Origin: Leadbettera azotonutricia ZAS-9
GTDB lineage: Bacteria > Spirochaetota > Spirochaetia > Treponematales > Breznakiellaceae
Length of the DNA stretch: 64,000 bases
NCBI RefSeq assembly: GCF_000214355.1
Contig: NC_015577.1
Location: 310,001-374,000 of the forward strand
Reading direction: 5' to 3'
Position 1 is the stretch's first letter. The number at the start of each line of letters is the position of its first letter. Positions 501 through 64,000 of this stretch are shown piece by piece. The translations under genes and the position numbers were made by a program. The notes beneath the pieces are model-generated. The model was not told the DNA's origin, did not search any database, and worked only from the letters and a program-made list of their open reading frames with translations.

Positions 501-2369
501 TTATACCGAAGGGGAACCTTCGCTCCTGTGGAGATCGGCGGGGGTTCCAGCCTTCGGTTGCACTATGGAAAGGTGGAGCTCGTTAAGCTGCTCCTGGCTC
601 ACCGTATTGGGGCTGTCGTCCAGGGGACTTTGGGCAAAGGAATTCTTCGGGAAGGCGATTACCTCCCTGATGGAAGTTTCCCCGGCCATGAGCATCACCA
701 GGCGGTCAAGTCCGGGGGCAATGCCTCCGTGGGGAGGCGCGCCGTATTTGAAAGCTTCGGTGAGGAAGCCGAACTTGGACTCAGCCTCGGCAGGATCAAA
801 GCCCACGATTTTGAAGATTTTCTTCTGGAGATCAGGATCGTGGATCCTTATGGAACCCGAGGCAAGCTCAAACCCGTTAAGCACCAGGTCGTAAAGGTCG
901 CCCTTTACTGCACCAGGGTCCTGTTCCAATGTCGCGTGGTACTTACCCTGGGGATAGGAGAACATGTGGTGAGCCGCTTCCCAGCGGTTTTCATCTTCGT
1001 TGAATTCAAAGAGGGGGAAGTCCACGATCCAGGCGAATTCAAATTTGGCGGGATCGCAGAGTCCCAGATCCCTTCCCAGTTTTGAGCGCACTGCGCCCAG
1101 GGCGGTGTTTGCAATACGGCGCTTACTGTCCGCCACGATGAGGATAAGATCCCCCTGCTTTGCACCAAGGCCTTTGATAATATCGGCGGCCTGGGAAGCG
1201 AAGAATTTTGAAACTCCCCCTTCAAGTATGCCTGCGCCTACCTTCATCCAGGCCATGCCCTTGGCCTTGTAGATCTTGGCCTGGGCTTCGAGTTCTTCAA
1301 TCTGCTTGCGGGAATAGTCCCCCTTACCGGGGACTACCAGGGCCTTAACACCGCCGCCTGAAATAGTAATGCCTTTGGCAGCGGCGGCAGCCTTGTCGGC
1401 TTCGCCCGCTGCAAGGGCATCCTTAAAAGCCTGGAACTCGCCGCCCGCCACATAGGGGCTAAAATCCTGCATTTTCATATCAAAGCGAAGGTCGGGCTTG
1501 TCGGTGCCGAAAAGCTCCATGGCCTCGTCATAACTGTAACGCTTGAATTGAGCGGGGAGGCTGGTGTTCAGGGTCTTTTTGAATATATGCCCCATAAGGC
1601 CCTCGACCATACTCAGAATATCTTCGCGGCCCACAAAGGACATTTCAATATCAATCTGGGTGAATTCAGGCTGCCTGTCGCCCCGTGCGTCCTCGTCGCG
1701 GTAACAGCGGGCGATCTGAAAATATTTGTCAAAGCCCGCCACCATGAGGATCTGCTTGTAGAGCTGGGGCGACTGGGGCAGAGCGTAAAACTGCCCCGCA
1801 TAGAGCCGCGAAGGCACAAGGTAATCCCTGGCCCCTTCGGGGGTGGAACGTATAAACGTGGGGGTCTCGATTTCGTAGAAGCCCCCGGCAGTAAGGTATT
1901 CCCTGACCGCAAAGGCGACATCGCTCCGCAGTTTGATTTTGCGCTGCATGGAAGCAGTGCGGAGATCCAGATAGCGGTACTTGAGGCGCAGTTCTTCCTT
2001 GGCTCCGGATTCCCCATCGATCTGGAAAGGCAGTACTTCGGCCCGGCTTAAAATGACGATCTTTTCAGCCGCCACTTCGATTTCGCCGGTGTCCATTTCG
2101 GGGTTTATCATCGAATCGGGCCGGGCTCGTACCGTGCCCTCTATAGCCAGGCAGTATTCGTTACGCAGTTCGGCAGTCAGGGACGCAAGCTCTGCAGGGG
2201 CGCCATCGTCTACCACCACCTGGGTTACGCCGTAGCGATCCCTCAGGTTGATAAAGGAGATGCCCCCGTGTTCCCGCTTGCGGTGTACCCAGCCATTAAG
2301 GGTAACCTTTTTACCTGCGTCGGCCTTGCGAAGGGCCCCGCAGGTTACCGTACGTTTCATTGTTTCCAT
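501..2369 (-). CDS. aspS: Aspartyl-tRNA synthetase, bacterial type
   Basis: This charges tRNA-Asp with aspartate in the cytoplasm. The 622-residue product has the class IIb layout: an N-terminal OB anticodon-binding domain (GWVHRKREHGGISFINLRD, residues about 26-44), class II motif 2 (ARCYRDEDARGDRQPEFTQ), the bacterial GAD insertion in the middle (about residues 300-430), and motif 3 (GIAPGLDRLVMLMAG) near residue 555. Length fits bacterial AspRS (about 590-610 residues). The C-terminal tail after the motif 3 region is slightly longer than usual. Start is M1 or M4. It lies between a GNAT gene 43 bp upstream and the chrA-like gene two bases downstream. Discriminating or non-discriminating specificity cannot be decided by eye. 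Confidence 0.97.
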   Translation of the reverse strand: METMKRTVTCGALRKADAGKKVTLNGWVHRKREHGGISFINLRDRYGVTQVVVDDGAPAELASLTAELRNEYCLAIEGTVRARPDSMINPEMDTGEIEVAAEKIVILSRAEVLPFQIDGESGAKEELRLKYRYLDLRTASMQRKIKLRSDVAFAVREYLTAGGFYEIETPTFIRSTPEGARDYLVPSRLYAGQFYALPQSPQLYKQILMVAGFDKYFQIARCYRDEDARGDRQPEFTQIDIEMSFVGREDILSMVEGLMGHIFKKTLNTSLPAQFKRYSYDEAMELFGTDKPDLRFDMKMQDFSPYVAGGEFQAFKDALAAGEADKAAAAAKGITISGGGVKALVVPGKGDYSRKQIEELEAQAKIYKAKGMAWMKVGAGILEGGVSKFFASQAADIIKGLGAKQGDLILIVADSKRRIANTALGAVRSKLGRDLGLCDPAKFEFAWIVDFPLFEFNEDENRWEAAHHMFSYPQGKYHATLEQDPGAVKGDLYDLVLNGFELASGSIRIHDPDLQKKIFKIVGFDPAEAESKFGFLTEAFKYGAPPHGGIAPGLDRLVMLMAGETSIREVIAFPKNSFAQSPLDDSPNTVSQEQLNELHLSIVQPKAGTPADLHRSEGSPSV

Positions 2370-2412
2370 GTATTATTTATAGAGAATGTTGGCATATCAT
2401 TCAATATGTATG

Positions 2413-3276
2413 CTATTTTTCCAGGTTCAGGCTGTAGCGGATAAGGCTTGGCTCAAAGCCGCTGCGGGCCAAAACCCGGGAGAAGCCTTCGAAACCTGCA
2501 GGGAGATCCACAAAAACCCGGGAGGCTTCCCCTGCTTTTAGTGCAGCAAGAAGCCGGGTGAGCAATGCCTCGCCTATGCCGAGGCCCCGGTATTCCGGCC
2601 TTACCTCCAGAATCCCTATGCGGAGTTCAGAATGTTTGCAGCCAGCCGAAATGAAGCCTGCGAATTCCCCGCCACCTGATTCAGACATAAAAGACATTTC
2701 TCCGGGAAATTTGGCAGCGTCTTCCGGTGAAATGCCTGCCTCTTTAGCTGCATCAATGCAAAGCTTATGAAGCTCCTTCGCAGCCTGAAGGTCGCTTTCC
2801 CGGAATTCGCGGAAGCGGAAATCCTCAAGCACCAGGTCGCCGGTATCCTCGGGCTCAAGGCCTATTTTTTCGAGGCCCCATTCTTCCCTTAAGGCATTGT
2901 ACCAGGAGATGATCTCCTGCTTCATTTCCCGCTCTTTATATAAGAACCACATTTTTTCAGCTTCCGGATGCTGGCTCAGGGTGTTTTTAAAAGCCCTGAA
3001 AACCCCCCGCCCCCTGTTGAGGGCCGAAGTGAGTTCGTCCCGGATCAATGGATTGCGGAAACCTGCGGCAAAACGCTCCATAAGCCTGAAGCCGCTGGAA
3101 GAATCCCATTCGGGGAGGCTGATATAGCGGCCTTCCTCATCGTCCCCTTCTTCGGGGGGATCGTCATCCCCCTCTGCCACGACCCCCTCTTTCGTATCAA
3201 TATGAAAATCGCCATCCTGATCTTCCATGGAAAACAGGATGTCATCCATGAGGGCTTCGGTTAATTCAAACTGCAT
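2413..3276 (-). CDS. UPF0158-like domain fused to a GNAT acetyltransferase
   Basis: The predicted product is 287 residues. Residues about 1-60 (FELTEALMDDILFSMEDQDGD and the following acidic stretch) resemble the small UPF0158 family, whose function is unknown. The C-terminal third (from about residue 150) is a GNAT fold with the acetyl-CoA loop seen as RPEYRGLGIGEALLTRLL. GNAT enzymes transfer acetyl groups from acetyl-CoA to amines; the acceptor here is unknown. The open frame extends upstream to 3507, but that part overlaps the preceding membrane-protein gene in another frame and looks non-coding, so the ATG at 3276 is preferred although it lacks a clear ribosome-binding site. It sits just upstream of aspS and probably shares its transcript. 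Confidence 0.7.
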   Translation of the reverse strand: MQFELTEALMDDILFSMEDQDGDFHIDTKEGVVAEGDDDPPEEGDDEEGRYISLPEWDSSSGFRLMERFAAGFRNPLIRDELTSALNRGRGVFRAFKNTLSQHPEAEKMWFLYKEREMKQEIISWYNALREEWGLEKIGLEPEDTGDLVLEDFRFREFRESDLQAAKELHKLCIDAAKEAGISPEDAAKFPGEMSFMSESGGGEFAGFISAGCKHSELRIGILEVRPEYRGLGIGEALLTRLLAALKAGEASRVFVDLPAGFEGFSRVLARSGFEPSLIRYSLNLEK

Positions 3277-57821: not shown

Positions 57822-57924
57822 GCGGAAGATATACCAAAGAAGGATAAAAAACCTGGAAATTAAAATCAGGAACAGACCCCGATGTTTTCATTCATCTATA
57901 ACCTCTCAATATCAATAATTTTTT

Positions 57925-57998
57925 ATCGATAATAAAATATCGATTTTTTCCTAAAAGTACTTTACAAAACTTTTTCTATTTGATATAAATTTATCGAT
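57925..57998 (+). promoter_or_regulatory. adhE operon promoter with ATCGAT operator-like sites
   Basis: TTTACA (57961-57966) and TATAAA (57984-57989) are 17 bp apart. An inverted repeat ATCGATA-N6-TATCGAT stands at 57925-57944, about 17 bp before the -35. A third ATCGAT at 57993-57998 covers the predicted start site. The gap 57822-57924 shows nothing else. Confidence 0.55.
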
Positions 57999-58077: not shown

Positions 58078-60699
58078 ATGGCTGAAACAAAAAAGTACGA
58101 GACGGTCAACAGTCCGGAGACGCTGGAAAAGGCTCTGGCGGGTATACGGGCGGCGCAGAAAATCTACGCTGCTTTTACCCAGGAGCAGGTGGACAGGATT
58201 TTCTTTGCTGCGGCCTGCGCTGCGGACCGGGCGCGGATCAAGCTGGCAAAGATGGCGGTGGAAGAAACCGGCATGGGCATTGTCGAAGACAAGGTGATTA
58301 AAAACCACTATGCGGCGGAATACATATACAATGCTTACAAAAACACCAAAACCTGCGGTATTATCGAAGAGGATGCGGCTTATGGAATCAAGAAGATTGC
58401 CGAACCCATTGGGCTTATAGCGGCGGTTATCCCCACTACCAATCCTACCTCCACAGCGATTTTCAAAACCCTCATCTGCCTTAAGACCCGCAATGGGATT
58501 ATCATTTCCCCCCACCCCAGGGCAAAGGGCAGCACAAATGCGGCGGCCAGGATTGTGCTGGACGCGGCAGTCGCGGCGGGCGCCCCCGAGGGGCTTATAC
58601 GCTGGATAGACGAGCCGAGCCTCGAAATGACCAATACGGTAATGAAAGAGGCGGATACCATCCTCGCCACCGGAGGGCCGGGCATGGTGAAGTCGGCCTA
58701 TTCTTCGGGCAAGCCGGCTATCGGCGTTGGTTCAGGCAATGTCCCGGCTGTCATCGATTCAAGTGCCGATGTGATTTTGGCGGTTAATTCAATAATCCAT
58801 TCCAAGACCTTTGACAACGGCATGATTTGCGCATCGGAACAATCGGTAATTGTGCTGGACGATGTGTATGACGCGGTGAAAAAAGAATTCCAGGCCCGGG
58901 GCTGCCATTTCCTCAGTGCGGCGGATACAGAAAAAGTGCGGAAGACCATTATCATTAATGGCGCGCTTAATGCCAAAATCGTAGGGCAGAAGGCCCACAC
59001 TATAGCGGCTCTTGCAGGGGTGAAAGTCCCGGAAGCTACAAAAATAATTATCGGCGAAGTTAAAAGTGTTGATATCAGCGAGGAATTTGCCCACGAAAAA
59101 CTTTCGCCTGTGCTGGGCATGTACAAGGCCAAGACATTCGGCGAAGCCCTGGACAAGGCTGAACAGCTTATCCGCGACGGCGGTTACGGCCATACCGCAT
59201 CCCTTTACCTTAACACGGTTACCGATAAAGCCAAGATCGATGAATTTGCTTCCCGCATGAAGACCTGCCGCATCATTGTGAATACCCCGTCTTCCCACGG
59301 CGGTATCGGGGATCTGTACAACTTCAAGCTTGCGCCGTCCCTTACCCTGGGATGCGGTTCATGGGGCGGGAACTCGGTTTCCGAAAATGTGGGAGTAAAA
59401 CACTTAATGAACATTAAAACTGTTGCTGAAAGGAGGGAGAACATGCTCTGGTTCAGGGCTCCTGAAAAGATCTATATAAAGAAAGGCTGCCTCCCGGTTG
59501 CCCTGGATGAACTTAAAAATGTGCTGGGCAAAAAACGGGTATATATCGTTACCGATAACTTCCTCTACAAAAACGGATACACCAAAGCCATCACCGGCAA
59601 GCTCGACGAAATGGGAATCGTCCACGAGACCTTCTTTGACGTGGAGCCTGACCCGACTCTGGCCTGCGCGAAGAAAGGCGCCGCCCTGATGACGGCATTC
59701 CAGCCTGACTGCATTATCGCCCTGGGCGGCGGTTCCGCCATGGACGCCGGCAAAATCATGTGGGTCCTCTACGAACACCCCGAAGCCGACTTCCAGGATA
59801 TGGCCATGCGCTTTATCGACATACGCAAGCGTGTCTACACCTTCCCCAAAATGGGCGAAAAAGCCTACTTTATCGCGGTTCCTACTTCGGCGGGGACGGG
59901 CAGCGAAGTAACGCCTTTTGCGGTTATCACGGATGAAAAAATCGGCATGAAGTACCCTCTGGCGGATTATGAACTCATGCCGGATATGGCAATTGTAGAT
60001 GCGGACTTGATGATGAACGCGCCCAAGGGGCTCACCAGCGCATCGGGAATCGACGCGCTCACCCACGACCTGGAGGCTTATGCTTCCATGCTTGCCACGG
60101 ATTATACCGACGGGCTGGCCCTCAGGTCCATGCAGATGATCTTCAAATATCTGCCCGCGGCGTACAATAATGGCGCCAACGATGCTATTGCCCGTGAAAA
60201 GATGGCTAACGCTGCAACCATGGCGGGTATGGCTTTTGCCAACGCATTCCTCGGCGTGTGCCATTCCATGGCGCATAAGCTCGGGGCTTTTCATCATCTT
60301 CCCCACGGTATTGCAAATGCCCTTTTGATAAACGAGGTGCTGCGCTTTAACGCTGTGGAAGTACCGCCCAAGATGGGGACTTTTTCCCAGTACGATCACC
60401 CCCATACCCTGGCCCGCTATGTTGAGATCGCCGACTTCCTTGGCCTTAAAGGAAAAACTGATGGGGAAAAACTTGACAGTCTTATTGCGGCAATTGATAA
60501 GCTTAAATCCGCGATAGGAATCAAAAAGACAATTAAGGATTACAACATCGACGAAAAAGATTTTCTTGCCCGCCTGGACGAAATGAGCGAGCAGGCTTTT
60601 GACGATCAATGCACTGGCGCTAACCCGCGCTATCCTTTAATTGCAGAAATCAGGCAGATGTACCTTAACGCCTATTACGGGAAAGGGGAGAAAGCATGA
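58078..60699 (+). CDS. adhE: Bifunctional acetaldehyde-CoA/alcohol dehydrogenase AdhE
   Basis: AdhE reduces acetyl-CoA through acetaldehyde to ethanol with NADH, and forms filaments (spirosomes) in other bacteria. The 873-residue product has an N-terminal aldehyde dehydrogenase domain (about 1-440) with catalytic C251 in NGMICASEQS and IPTTNPTSTAI. A linker follows, then an iron-dependent alcohol dehydrogenase domain (about 455-873) with GGGSAMDAGK and the iron-binding HSMAHKLGAFHHLPHG. AGGAGG precedes ATG. It is the first gene of a four- or five-gene operon and overlaps the kinase gene by four bases. The promoter region carries repeated ATCGAT sites. Confidence 0.97.
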   Translation: MAETKKYETVNSPETLEKALAGIRAAQKIYAAFTQEQVDRIFFAAACAADRARIKLAKMAVEETGMGIVEDKVIKNHYAAEYIYNAYKNTKTCGIIEEDAAYGIKKIAEPIGLIAAVIPTTNPTSTAIFKTLICLKTRNGIIISPHPRAKGSTNAAARIVLDAAVAAGAPEGLIRWIDEPSLEMTNTVMKEADTILATGGPGMVKSAYSSGKPAIGVGSGNVPAVIDSSADVILAVNSIIHSKTFDNGMICASEQSVIVLDDVYDAVKKEFQARGCHFLSAADTEKVRKTIIINGALNAKIVGQKAHTIAALAGVKVPEATKIIIGEVKSVDISEEFAHEKLSPVLGMYKAKTFGEALDKAEQLIRDGGYGHTASLYLNTVTDKAKIDEFASRMKTCRIIVNTPSSHGGIGDLYNFKLAPSLTLGCGSWGGNSVSENVGVKHLMNIKTVAERRENMLWFRAPEKIYIKKGCLPVALDELKNVLGKKRVYIVTDNFLYKNGYTKAITGKLDEMGIVHETFFDVEPDPTLACAKKGAALMTAFQPDCIIALGGGSAMDAGKIMWVLYEHPEADFQDMAMRFIDIRKRVYTFPKMGEKAYFIAVPTSAGTGSEVTPFAVITDEKIGMKYPLADYELMPDMAIVDADLMMNAPKGLTSASGIDALTHDLEAYASMLATDYTDGLALRSMQMIFKYLPAAYNNGANDAIAREKMANAATMAGMAFANAFLGVCHSMAHKLGAFHHLPHGIANALLINEVLRFNAVEVPPKMGTFSQYDHPHTLARYVEIADFLGLKGKTDGEKLDSLIAAIDKLKSAIGIKKTIKDYNIDEKDFLARLDEMSEQAFDDQCTGANPRYPLIAEIRQMYLNAYYGKGEKA

Positions 60700-61445
60700 A
60701 ACTTGAAAAAATAATCGCTGTCAGGACCGACAAAACCATCTACCTTGACGGGAACAAGGTTGTCAAAGTGATGGGCCCTTCGTACCCTGCATCGGATGTA
60801 CTGTCCGAAGCGCTGAACCTGGCTTGTGTGAACGAGACACCCTTAAAAACGCCAAAGCTTCTTGAAGTGACCCAGGTTGACGGGAAGTGGGCCATCGTGT
60901 GGGAGTACATCAAAGGCAAAACCCTTGCGGAAATCATGGATAAGGACAAGGCAAATTTCGAAAAAAATATGAGCCGCTTTGTGGACATTCAGCTGGAAAT
61001 GCACAGGTACAAAACCACGCGGCTGCCTCTTTTGACAGAAAAACTGCAGCGCAAGATAGGCGCCTGCGGCCTTGACGCTTCCTCCCGCTATGAATTGAGC
61101 ACCAGGCTTGCAAGCCTGCCCAAGCACACAAAACTGTGCCACGGCGACTTTAACCCCAGCAATATCATCATCACCGATAAAGACGAAGCCTATATCATCG
61201 ACTGGTCACATGCTACCCAGGGGAACGCCTCCGCAGATGCGGCTCAGACCTATCTCCTGTTCTGGCTTTCGGGAAACATTGATGCCGCCGGCGCATACCT
61301 GGAAAAATTCTGCAAAAAAAGCGATACCGCAAAACAGTACGTGCAGAAGTGGGTGTCCATTATTTCGGCTTCCCAGTTGGTGAAAGCAAAGCCCGCAGAA
61401 AAAGAATTTTTGCTCCATTGGGCAAATGTCGTAGAATACGAGTAA
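60696..61445 (+). CDS. APH-fold small-molecule kinase of unknown substrate
   Basis: The 249-residue protein is an aminoglycoside-phosphotransferase/choline-kinase fold. A small N-lobe (KIIAVRTDKTIYLDGNKVVKV) is followed by VWEYIKGKTLAEIM, the Brenner motif KLCHGDFNPSNIIITD (catalytic Asp and Asn) and YIIDWSHAT (metal-binding Asp). The acceptor may be a small metabolite, not an antibiotic, given the setting. It starts in an ATGA overlap with adhE and is followed 13 bp later by the [2Fe-2S] protein, so it is part of the fermentation/hydrogenase operon. A regulatory role is possible but unproven. Confidence 0.85.
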   Translation: MKLEKIIAVRTDKTIYLDGNKVVKVMGPSYPASDVLSEALNLACVNETPLKTPKLLEVTQVDGKWAIVWEYIKGKTLAEIMDKDKANFEKNMSRFVDIQLEMHRYKTTRLPLLTEKLQRKIGACGLDASSRYELSTRLASLPKHTKLCHGDFNPSNIIITDKDEAYIIDWSHATQGNASADAAQTYLLFWLSGNIDAAGAYLEKFCKKSDTAKQYVQKWVSIISASQLVKAKPAEKEFLLHWANVVEYE

Positions 61446-61458
61446 TTGAGGTGTTAAA

Positions 61459-61701
61459 ATGAAAATAACCGTTTGCATCGGAAGTTCCTGCCACCTAAAA
61501 GGTTCGCGGCAGGTGGTTGAGGGAGTGCAATCCCTCATTGCAAAACATGACCTGAAGAACAAGGTTGAATTGGGCGGTGTATTCTGCATGGGCAAATGCG
61601 ACACCGGTGTTTCCGTTACGGTGGACAAAGCCTATCATTCGGTGCAGCCCGAAAATGTCGAGGCATTTTTTAAAGAAGCTGTCCTGAAAAAACTTGCATA
61701 A
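61459..61701 (+). CDS. Thioredoxin-fold [2Fe-2S] ferredoxin
   Basis: The 80-residue protein has CIGSSC near residue 7 and FCMGKC near 43, giving the four cysteines of a thioredoxin-like [2Fe-2S] ferredoxin as in NuoE and hydrogenase small subunits. It probably passes electrons to or from the neighbouring hydrogenase. It lies 13 bp after the kinase gene and 20 bp before the sensory hydrogenase. Small size and lack of other domains distinguish it from NuoE (about 160 residues). Confidence 0.9.
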   Translation: MKITVCIGSSCHLKGSRQVVEGVQSLIAKHDLKNKVELGGVFCMGKCDTGVSVTVDKAYHSVQPENVEAFFKEAVLKKLA

Positions 61702-61721: not shown

Positions 61722-63449
61722 ATGACTGAGTATTTAAATTTAAAAGCGGCGGATTGCAAAAATTGCTATAAGTGCATCAGGCATTGTCCGGTAAAGGCCA
61801 TTCAATTTACCGGCAATTCGGCGCAGATTATACCGGAAGAATGCATACTTTGCGGCCGCTGCTTTGTGGTATGCCCCCAGAACGCCAAAGAAATCCGGAA
61901 CGATGTGAGTATTGCCGAGGCCCTTATTGGAAGCGGGGCCCCGGTATACGCAAGCCTGGCGCCCTCGTTTGCAGCCAATTATACTGACGAGTCCAGCCAC
62001 GCCCTCTCCATTGAACAGATGGAAACAGCCCTAAAGGAATTGGGTTTTGCGGGGGCTGAAGAAACTGCCCTTGGCGCGGCCATTATCAAACGTCAATACG
62101 ATGAAATGGTCAAGCGGGAGGACAAGAACATCGTTATTTCTACCTGCTGCCATTCGGTAAATCTTTTGGTGCAAAAATACTACCCTGAGGCACTGCCCTA
62201 TATTGCGCCTCTTCTTTCGCCCATGCAGGCCCACAGTGTGGATCTTAAGCGCCGTTATCCTGGGGCAAAAACAATTTTTATCGGGCCCTGCATTTCCAAA
62301 AAGGATGAAGCTGACCGTTATGGCGGTATTGTGGACTGTGTGCTTACTTTTGCCGAGTTATCCCAATGGTTTAAGCAGAAACGCATTGATATTGGCAAAT
62401 GCGCTCCCAGGAACACAGAAAGCCCGGTTACGCACACCCTTACCCGGCTTTTCCCGGTAACAGGCGGCATACTGCGTACCATGGCGAAAGAAAACCCCCA
62501 ATACACGTACCTTGCAATAGATGGTGTGACCAATATACAAAGAGCCCTTGAAGACATTATTAAAGGCAAATTGGACAAGTGCTTTATCGAAATGTCCGCC
62601 TGTACCGGAAGCTGTATCGGCGGTCCTTCCATGCAGAATGTGGCTGCCACCAACGGGATTCAGCGCAATACCGCGCCTGTACGCGATTATATCGCCATTA
62701 ATGCCTATGCAGGCAGCGAAGACGATCCGGTATTTGCATATGACACTAAAACGCTCTCGAAAAGCTTCCCTTCGCTTGCGGTACGAAAAGTGCATTTGGG
62801 GCAAAACGCCATTGATGAAGTACTGCGGAAAATCGGTAAAACAAAGCCCGAGCACGAATTAAACTGCGGCTGCTGCGGGTACAATACCTGCCGCGACAAG
62901 GCTCTTGCGGTGCTCGAAGGGAAAGCAAACCTTACCATGTGCCTGCCCTACCTCATCGAGAAGGCAAACTCATTTTCCGACGATATCATTAAAAATACGC
63001 CCAATGCCATAATAGTACTGAACGAAAGTTTTGAAGTGCAGCAGATAAATAACGCTGCCTGCAAAATGCTCCACATCAACGAGCATGATATACTTGGCGA
63101 TCAGGTTGTTCGCCTCCTTGATCCTATCCCGTTCATCGAAGTGAAAGACGAAGAAGAAAACCGCTACAACCAGCGCACCTATCTTGCCGATTATAAAAAG
63201 CATGTGGAGCAGACCATAATTTATGATAAAAGCTACCATATTATCATCTGTATTATGAGGGATATTACCGAGGCAGCGGATAAAAAAGAAGAAAAAACCA
63301 GGTTCAATCAGGAGACTATCGCCATTGCCGATAAAGTGATAGAAAAACAAATGCGCACAGTCCAGGAAATCGCATCCCTGTTGGGCGAAACTACAGCGGA
63401 AACAAAAATAGCCCTGACCAAGCTGAAAGAAGGCTTGTCAGGTGAATGA
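61722..63449 (+). CDS. [FeFe] hydrogenase-like sensor with ferredoxin and PAS domains (group C type)
   Basis: The 575-residue protein starts with two [4Fe-4S] sites (C12, C15, C18, C22 and C41, C44, C47, C51). The hydrogenase domain follows with L1 TCCHS (C142, C143), L2 GPCISKK (C190) and L3 EMSACTGSCIGG (C294, C298), so all H-cluster ligands are present. A further [4Fe-4S] domain (C382, C385, C390, C407) precedes a PAS domain (about 420-520) and a helical tail. This layout matches sensory [FeFe] hydrogenases, thought to report hydrogen or redox state rather than to turn over. It is probably cytoplasmic and follows the [2Fe-2S] gene by 20 bp. Confidence 0.93.
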   Translation: MTEYLNLKAADCKNCYKCIRHCPVKAIQFTGNSAQIIPEECILCGRCFVVCPQNAKEIRNDVSIAEALIGSGAPVYASLAPSFAANYTDESSHALSIEQMETALKELGFAGAEETALGAAIIKRQYDEMVKREDKNIVISTCCHSVNLLVQKYYPEALPYIAPLLSPMQAHSVDLKRRYPGAKTIFIGPCISKKDEADRYGGIVDCVLTFAELSQWFKQKRIDIGKCAPRNTESPVTHTLTRLFPVTGGILRTMAKENPQYTYLAIDGVTNIQRALEDIIKGKLDKCFIEMSACTGSCIGGPSMQNVAATNGIQRNTAPVRDYIAINAYAGSEDDPVFAYDTKTLSKSFPSLAVRKVHLGQNAIDEVLRKIGKTKPEHELNCGCCGYNTCRDKALAVLEGKANLTMCLPYLIEKANSFSDDIIKNTPNAIIVLNESFEVQQINNAACKMLHINEHDILGDQVVRLLDPIPFIEVKDEEENRYNQRTYLADYKKHVEQTIIYDKSYHIIICIMRDITEAADKKEEKTRFNQETIAIADKVIEKQMRTVQEIASLLGETTAETKIALTKLKEGLSGE

Positions 63450-63457
63450 GGCAATGT

Positions 63458-64000
63458 ATGGCACATTACAATAACAACGCCGTCCTCATAAAGCGTCAGC
63501 TTTTGGTTTCTATAATCAAATTGCTGCTTGAAGATAAACTGGAAGATGAGGTTGATCGTATTCCCTATGAGATGACCAAGGGAGCGGATTACGAATCCAT
63601 CCGCTGCTGCGTATACCACGACCGCAGCATTTTAAAAACCCGCATTTTGGCGCGGCTTGGTTTTTCCATCGAGGATTATATTGAAGACGGAAGCTCCCTT
63701 GTTCCCCAGGTCCGAAAGGCGCTAAAACGCAAAAAAATCGAAGGGCCTATACTCACGGTTTTGGATGAGGCCTGCAATGCCTGCATTAAAACCCAGTACC
63801 TCATAACTGACGCCTGCCAGGGTTGCCTGGCGAGGCCGTGTACTATGAACTGCCCCAAAAAGGCTATTTCTTTTAGCCGGAACAGGGCGGATATTGACAA
63901 GGCAAAGTGCATTAACTGCGGCATTTGCCTTCAAGCCTGTCCGTATCACGCGATTATCAAAATTCCGGTCCCTTGCGAAGAAGCATGCCCTGTGGACGCT
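63458..64000 (+). CDS. [FeFe] hydrogenase, group B-like, N-terminal part, cut by window edge
   Basis: The frame is open to the right edge (181 codons). The N-terminus (AVLIKRQLLVSIIKLLLEDKLEDEVDRIPYEM) and YHDRSILKTRILARLGFSIED match the helical lead of monomeric group B [FeFe] hydrogenases. TVLDEACNACIKTQYLITDACQGCLARPC and two [4Fe-4S] sites (CINCGICLQACPY) follow. The H-cluster domain lies beyond the window. It starts eight bases after the sensor hydrogenase stop, so it is likely the catalytic partner whose output is linked to the sensor. Confidence 0.85.
   Translation, partial: MAHYNNNAVLIKRQLLVSIIKLLLEDKLEDEVDRIPYEMTKGADYESIRCCVYHDRSILKTRILARLGFSIEDYIEDGSSLVPQVRKALKRKKIEGPILTVLDEACNACIKTQYLITDACQGCLARPCTMNCPKKAISFSRNRADIDKAKCINCGICLQACPYHAIIKIPVPCEEACPVDA

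Follow-up and report, generated by a model that had tools for sequence, protein, structure and literature searches.

Candidate operators of a variant Rex repressor in the adhE leader of Leadbettera azotonutricia ZAS-9

The closest described counterparts of the sites discussed here are operators of Rex, reported as TTGTGAAW4TTCACAA in Staphylococcus aureus (PMC2883068) and ATTGTTA-N6-TAACAAT in Thermoanaerobacter ethanolicus (PMC5886521). The structural description of the T. maritima protein has Arg48 reading G5, Lys49 touching G7 and A8, and Arg60 and Gly61 making minor-groove contacts with T4 and T3 (PMC8836258). In Caldicellulosiruptor bescii, a bifurcating [FeFe] hydrogenase belongs to the Rex regulon, and sites lying over or after the promoter were taken as indicating repression (PMC8579813). 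No Rex operator from Treponema or another spirochete was found in the literature searched, which did not extend to the comparative study Ravcheev 2012, and the same search returned no work on how spirochetes of termite guts control their redox genes.

The window analysed in the current study is a 64 kb stretch of DNA (bases 310001–374000 of the genome contig), and the leader of its adhE gene carries sites that are probably operators for a Rex whose gene comes last in the string headed by adhE. A sequence-only reading had pointed to repeated ATCGAT sites near the adhE promoter, and this was borne out, as an exact inverted pair, ATCGATA-ATAAAA-TATCGAT, lies at nt 57925–57944 and an extra ATCGAT at nt 57993–57998. 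The spaced pair ATCGATA-N6-TATCGAT has an expectation of 0.01 in shuffles of the window, and it occurs at a single exact place in the single-contig genome of 3,855,671 bp (control, 0). The hexamer ATCGAT by itself means little because it is common across the window (23 copies against 14.2 expected, exceeding all 100 shuffles), and most copies lie outside the adhE leader. The real unit is a 14-bp dyad, GATA-N6-TATC, rather than ATCGAT; where such dyads abut, the TATC/GATA junction reads ATCGAT, which accounts for the hexamers in the leader.

Three dyads can be read directly in the leader (Table 1), of which the imperfect O1 coincides in part with a half-site, TATCAATA, at nt 57910–57917, one 14-bp step to the left of the inverted pair, that had previously been overlooked. 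The window contains no perfect dyad besides O2 and O3, and two perfect dyads never occurred together when the 303-bp adhE leader was dinucleotide-shuffled 2000 times. O2 and O3 are 54 bp apart, or about five helical turns. The likely -35 and -10 elements of adhE, assigned by eye, are separated by a 17-bp spacer; an automated promoter scan, whose rule calls for T as the sixth base of the -10 element, did not list this promoter. The third site, which had been placed over the start point, does exist as an ATCGAT, but it is only the right half of the complete dyad O3, which overlaps the -10 element assigned by eye.

Table 1. Features of the adhE leader and of the genes that follow it, numbered from the first base of the window. 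NCBIfam or Pfam matches supplied the names of representative products; the remaining products were named by eye.
Feature	Position (nt)	Strand	Remarks
O1, imperfect dyad AATA-ATTTTT-TATC	57914–57927	.	one mismatch to GATA-N6-TATC; abuts O2
O2, perfect dyad GATA-ATAAAA-TATC	57928–57941	.	core of the inverted pair
O3, perfect dyad GATA-TAAATT-TATC	57982–57995	.	over the likely -10; right half is the third ATCGAT
Likely -35, TTTACA	57961–57966	+	assigned by eye
Likely -10, TATAAA	57984–57989	+	within O3; assigned by eye
adhE, bifunctional acetaldehyde-CoA/alcohol dehydrogenase	58078–60699	+	NF010378, 1375 bits, cut-off 951
APH-like phosphotransferase-fold protein	60696–61445	+	PF01636
Thioredoxin-like [2Fe-2S] ferredoxin	61459–61701	+	PF01257
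HydS-type [FeFe] hydrogenase domain with PAS	61722–63449	+	PF02906 + PAS; under NCBIfam cut-off
[FeFe] hydrogenase, start	63446–64000	+	TIGR04105; continues beyond the window

Downstream of adhE the order is APH-like protein, ferredoxin, HydS, [FeFe] hydrogenase, SpoIIE-like phosphatase and rex, the last two lying past the window on the same strand. The rex gene (G000:C1:376463–377077) begins 2.5 kb beyond the window end, about 8 kb downstream of the adhE promoter. Going by its architecture, the HydS-type protein is probably of the sensory type. A single contig of another family genome (L204, G077:C113) carries a fuller form of the string seen in the window, in which adhE, APH-like, HydS, SpoIIE-like phosphatase, NuoE/NuoF-like and hydrogenase-like genes stand in line with rex, all on the same strand.

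The Rex protein encoded by this string is 62% identical to the Rex query, passes the NCBIfam equivalog NF003994 (252 bits, cut-off 130), and consists of an N-terminal winged-helix domain (PF06971) and a C-terminal Rossmann domain (PF02629). A tree was built from 65 Rex proteins, with a warning of long branches from the program; a branch with support 100/99 separates the P60-type proteins (58 rows) from the four solved Rex proteins and three distant treponeme paralogues. Residue 48 is Arg or Lys and residue 49 is Lys in all 58 members of the clade (R and K in the ZAS-9 protein). The wing is altered, with Pro60 in 58/58 and Lys or Arg at position 61 in 57/58; the ZAS-9 protein has Pro60 and Lys61 where the glycine-rich Rex wing has Arg60 and Gly61. 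When the T. maritima contacts are numbered outwards from the middle of the dyad, G5 and A8 fall at -7 and -4 and match the first and fourth bases of GATA; exactly where residues 60 and 61 of that protein make contact, the operator carries TC or TA rather than TT. We infer that the wing change in the protein and the TT change in the DNA belong together. In the NAD(H) pocket the ZAS-9 protein has Tyr100, Asn92 and Asp115, with Met instead of Lys at position 120; across the clade Tyr100 is found in 50/58, Asp115 in 58/58 and Asn92 in 33/58.

The dyads are conserved before adhE in other members of the family. An AdhE match (E <= 0.001) was found in 90 of 98 family genomes, many of these matches being shorter paralogues, and leaders of the best-matching adhE genes carry the same arrays, with five half-sites in G086, four in G043, three each in G055 and G010, and two in several more. 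The centre of the half-site reads CG, TG, CA, AG or CT. Of 29 leaders, 24 entered the count; the duplicates L036, L049 and L074, the fragment L024, which has no leader, and L084, which belongs to another collection, were set aside. A pair with a gap of 6, in 14-bp phase, is present in 11 of the 24, a number that none of 100 shuffles attained, whichever gap between 0 and 24 was considered. The second commonest gap, 20 (nine leaders), equals two 14-bp steps. The gap-6 pair is absent from 13 of the 24 leaders, including that of the nearest relative, which is represented by 118 bp of leader only. The sequence-only reading had proposed asking whether the sites occur at random frequency or lack conservation before adhE in relatives; this check was run, by shuffling and on the family leaders, and the sites passed it.

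A comparison outside the family drew on the 80 best adhE loci from other genome contigs, mostly of Clostridia. Arrays of TATCGATA were present in 21 of 23 loci with a P60-type Rex beside adhE, against one of 57 without (p 5e-16), although these loci share ancestry and so are not independent draws. The exceptions are the two loci with a P60-type Rex and no array, and L084, which has an array and no such rex in the locus. The pair has a gap of 6 in eight of the 80 loci and of 7 in 14, and gaps of 3–5 and 8–11 did not occur; when gaps 4–9 were searched for exactly in the 22 genomes reached via those loci, a gap of 6 came up ten times, 7 five times and 4 once (control, one). The gap of 7, equivalent to a 15-bp register, falls in two Rex subclades of the tree, and a fixed dimer geometry does not account for it. 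This register was observed in the TATCGATA arrays of the clostridial lysR-rex-adhE loci L047, L056, L068, L075, L076, L086, L087, L096, L098, L104 and L105, several of which add a separate GTTA- or GATA-type 14-bp dyad closer to the gene. Over 195 family genomes, with cut-offs chosen by the authors (E <= 1e-40 for Rex, about 1e-80 for LysR), a motif place was found in 33 of the 55 with a P60-type Rex and in 27 of the 140 without (p 9e-8; control pattern, p 0.33); the other 22 genomes carrying this Rex have no motif place at one mismatch.

The arrays could instead be bound by a second, distant Rex, or by an unrelated regulator, with the P60-type Rex itself being just a target. We consider this unlikely, even though the ZAS-9 genome does contain a second Rex (nt 3310782–3311327; L199, G000:C1:3308500–3313500, ORF 2244–2816, minus strand) and the sites precede rex itself in several genera, since the arrays track the P60-type Rex over two phyla and switch register with its subclades. 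The distant Rex gene of G021 is preceded, at a distance of about 40 bp, by a textbook-like TTGTGAAATATTTCACAG (G021:C217:5030–5047), which hints that the distant paralogue reads the textbook word. A second, distant Rex paralogue occurs in many family genomes, and perfect copies of TTGTGAAATATTTCACAA occur in several g23 genomes; two Rex paralogues in one cell may each read a different word.

Less probable still is binding of the arrays, and activation of adhE, by a LysR-type regulator whose gene adjoins adhE or rex in some relatives. The sites precede lysR in G070, G077, G079, G082 and G092, and lysR stands upstream of rex-adhE in many Clostridia, but the complete ZAS-9 genome has no match to this LysR at E <= 0.001, and among the 80 adhE loci arrays accompany only one of 15 LysR loci lacking a P60-type Rex. 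Nor is LysR associated with the motif over the 195 genomes (p 0.35), where the motif is found in 1/9 of those with LysR and no P60-type Rex, and in 25/41 of those with the Rex and no LysR. The candidate was therefore rejected. Chance repeats within an AT-rich leader can be dismissed almost entirely, for while bare ATCGAT is over-represented in the window and a degenerate two-mismatch pattern stands at control level in the ZAS-9 genome (five places, two of them at adhE and one at hydABC, vs six), the shuffle tests and above all conservation at a fixed phase refute it.

With the P60-type Rex as the preferred regulator, the reach of the dyad was followed through the family. At one mismatch the pattern has 84 forward places in the 195 genomes, vs 27 for the reversed control. 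Judged by eye, 45 of the 84 are at promoters of adhE, rex, hydrogenase, CO dehydrogenase, formate dehydrogenase, metF, alcohol or alanine dehydrogenase, or lysR (five of the 45), and the other 39 are in coding DNA, at contig ends, before unrelated genes, or unread. The loci with dyads include rex, rex-adhE, adhE, an adhE paralogue, HydS with a small ferredoxin, and lysR, as well as hydABC (G121, G139), CO dehydrogenase genes (G077, G152), and formate dehydrogenase and metF-fhs (G037). In the ZAS-9 genome a dyad with two mismatches lies just upstream of a hydABC-type hydrogenase operon, and there is none directly before rex; another degenerate pattern gave 112 places there, vs 47 in the control, most of them due to chance. 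Dyads were also seen upstream of alanine dehydrogenase in G152, G034 and G141 (L195, L198, L209), two of the three beside a divergent Lrp-like gene, and this enzyme is a possible, if unexpected, redox target.

Leaders were further scanned for sites with at least 14 of 16 matching positions within 300 bp, leaving out one cooS and two hydC loci in which the leader was too short or had no position. Such sites precede cooS in 3/29 cases (G077, G152, G071; shuffle, 0.05) and hydC in 3/28, the ZAS-9 genome among them, and fhs in 0/30. Weaker cooS sites occur in G037 and G040, the former having a perfect core dyad yet only 13 of 16 matches. We regard adhE and rex as firm targets, and hydABC and HydS as probable ones; the acetogenesis genes of the G037 group are a lead, and for acetogenesis in general there is only partial support. 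The proposal of a dedicated regulator has survived in part. That a regulator acts on these sites is well supported, but it is not dedicated to adhE, because the dyad also precedes hydABC in the ZAS-9 genome, and rex, HydS and cooS in relatives. The suggestion that control follows the redox state fits, the best candidate being Rex, a family that senses NADH/NAD+; HydS, the sensory hydrogenase also named there, is a neighbour of adhE in the same gene string.

A plausible scheme can be drawn from these comparisons. Rex dimers would bind end-to-end on the 14-bp dyads GATA-N6-TATC. At low NADH, Rex would occupy O3 across the -10 element and, presumably in cooperation with O1/O2 about five helical turns upstream, block adhE. 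If a single transcript runs as far as rex, the HydS, hydrogenase and rex genes would probably be blocked too, by loss of read-through. As NADH rises, Rex would be released and the NADH-oxidising AdhE made.

Hydrogen, ethanol and acetate fluxes of termite-gut spirochetes feed the insect, and a defined Rex word would provide a search key for the redox regulon of these organisms. The P60-type clade would also represent a natural experiment, in which the operator of a repressor changes (wing substitution, 14 vs 15 bp) with the sensor half unchanged. A broader proposal, which we put forward tentatively and hold to be somewhat short of an even chance, is that a Rex clade common to gut treponemes and gut Clostridia has rewired its DNA word via the wing, binds as many as four dyads arranged head to tail, strictly in a 14-bp register (15-bp in two subclades), and extends its control to CO dehydrogenase and formate dehydrogenase in the acetogenic treponemes of the G037 group. 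If so, hydrogen/ethanol output and CO2-reducing acetogenesis would both answer to a single NADH sensor in these treponemes.

The textbook operator, TTGT(G/T)AA-N4-TT(C/A)ACAA, which comprises the forms TTGTGAA-N4-TTCACAA and TTGTTAA-N4-TTAACAA, differs from that of the P60 clade and is not matched by the adhE-leader sites, although the spacing, G-7 and A-4 are kept. At one mismatch it was matched in 149 of the 195 genomes, mostly near control level, and is uninformative in bulk. A lax scan found textbook Rex sites in 36 of the 80 adhE loci outside the family, vs three in one shuffle. In these clostridial leaders the gene and the place of the sites are the same, with GTTA half-sites instead; in L069 and L089 two GTTA-type sites likewise start 14 bp apart, and most of the loci with textbook sites have no P60-type rex in the locus. 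The 20-bp motif of C. bescii Rex is described as like that of other clostridial Rex proteins, and its targets differ (PMC8579813). Compared with the known systems, the wing is GKPK here rather than GK(R)G, the half-site is GATA rather than GTTA or GTGA and is flanked on its outside by TC or TA rather than TT, abutting rows of dyads are usual, and two subclades use a 15-bp register. Shared with the known Rex operators are the protein family, the targets (adhE, hydrogenases, rex), half-sites of four bases with six bases between them, and the outer G and inner A of each half-site. The sites thus appear to constitute a variant Rex operator and not a new kind of system.
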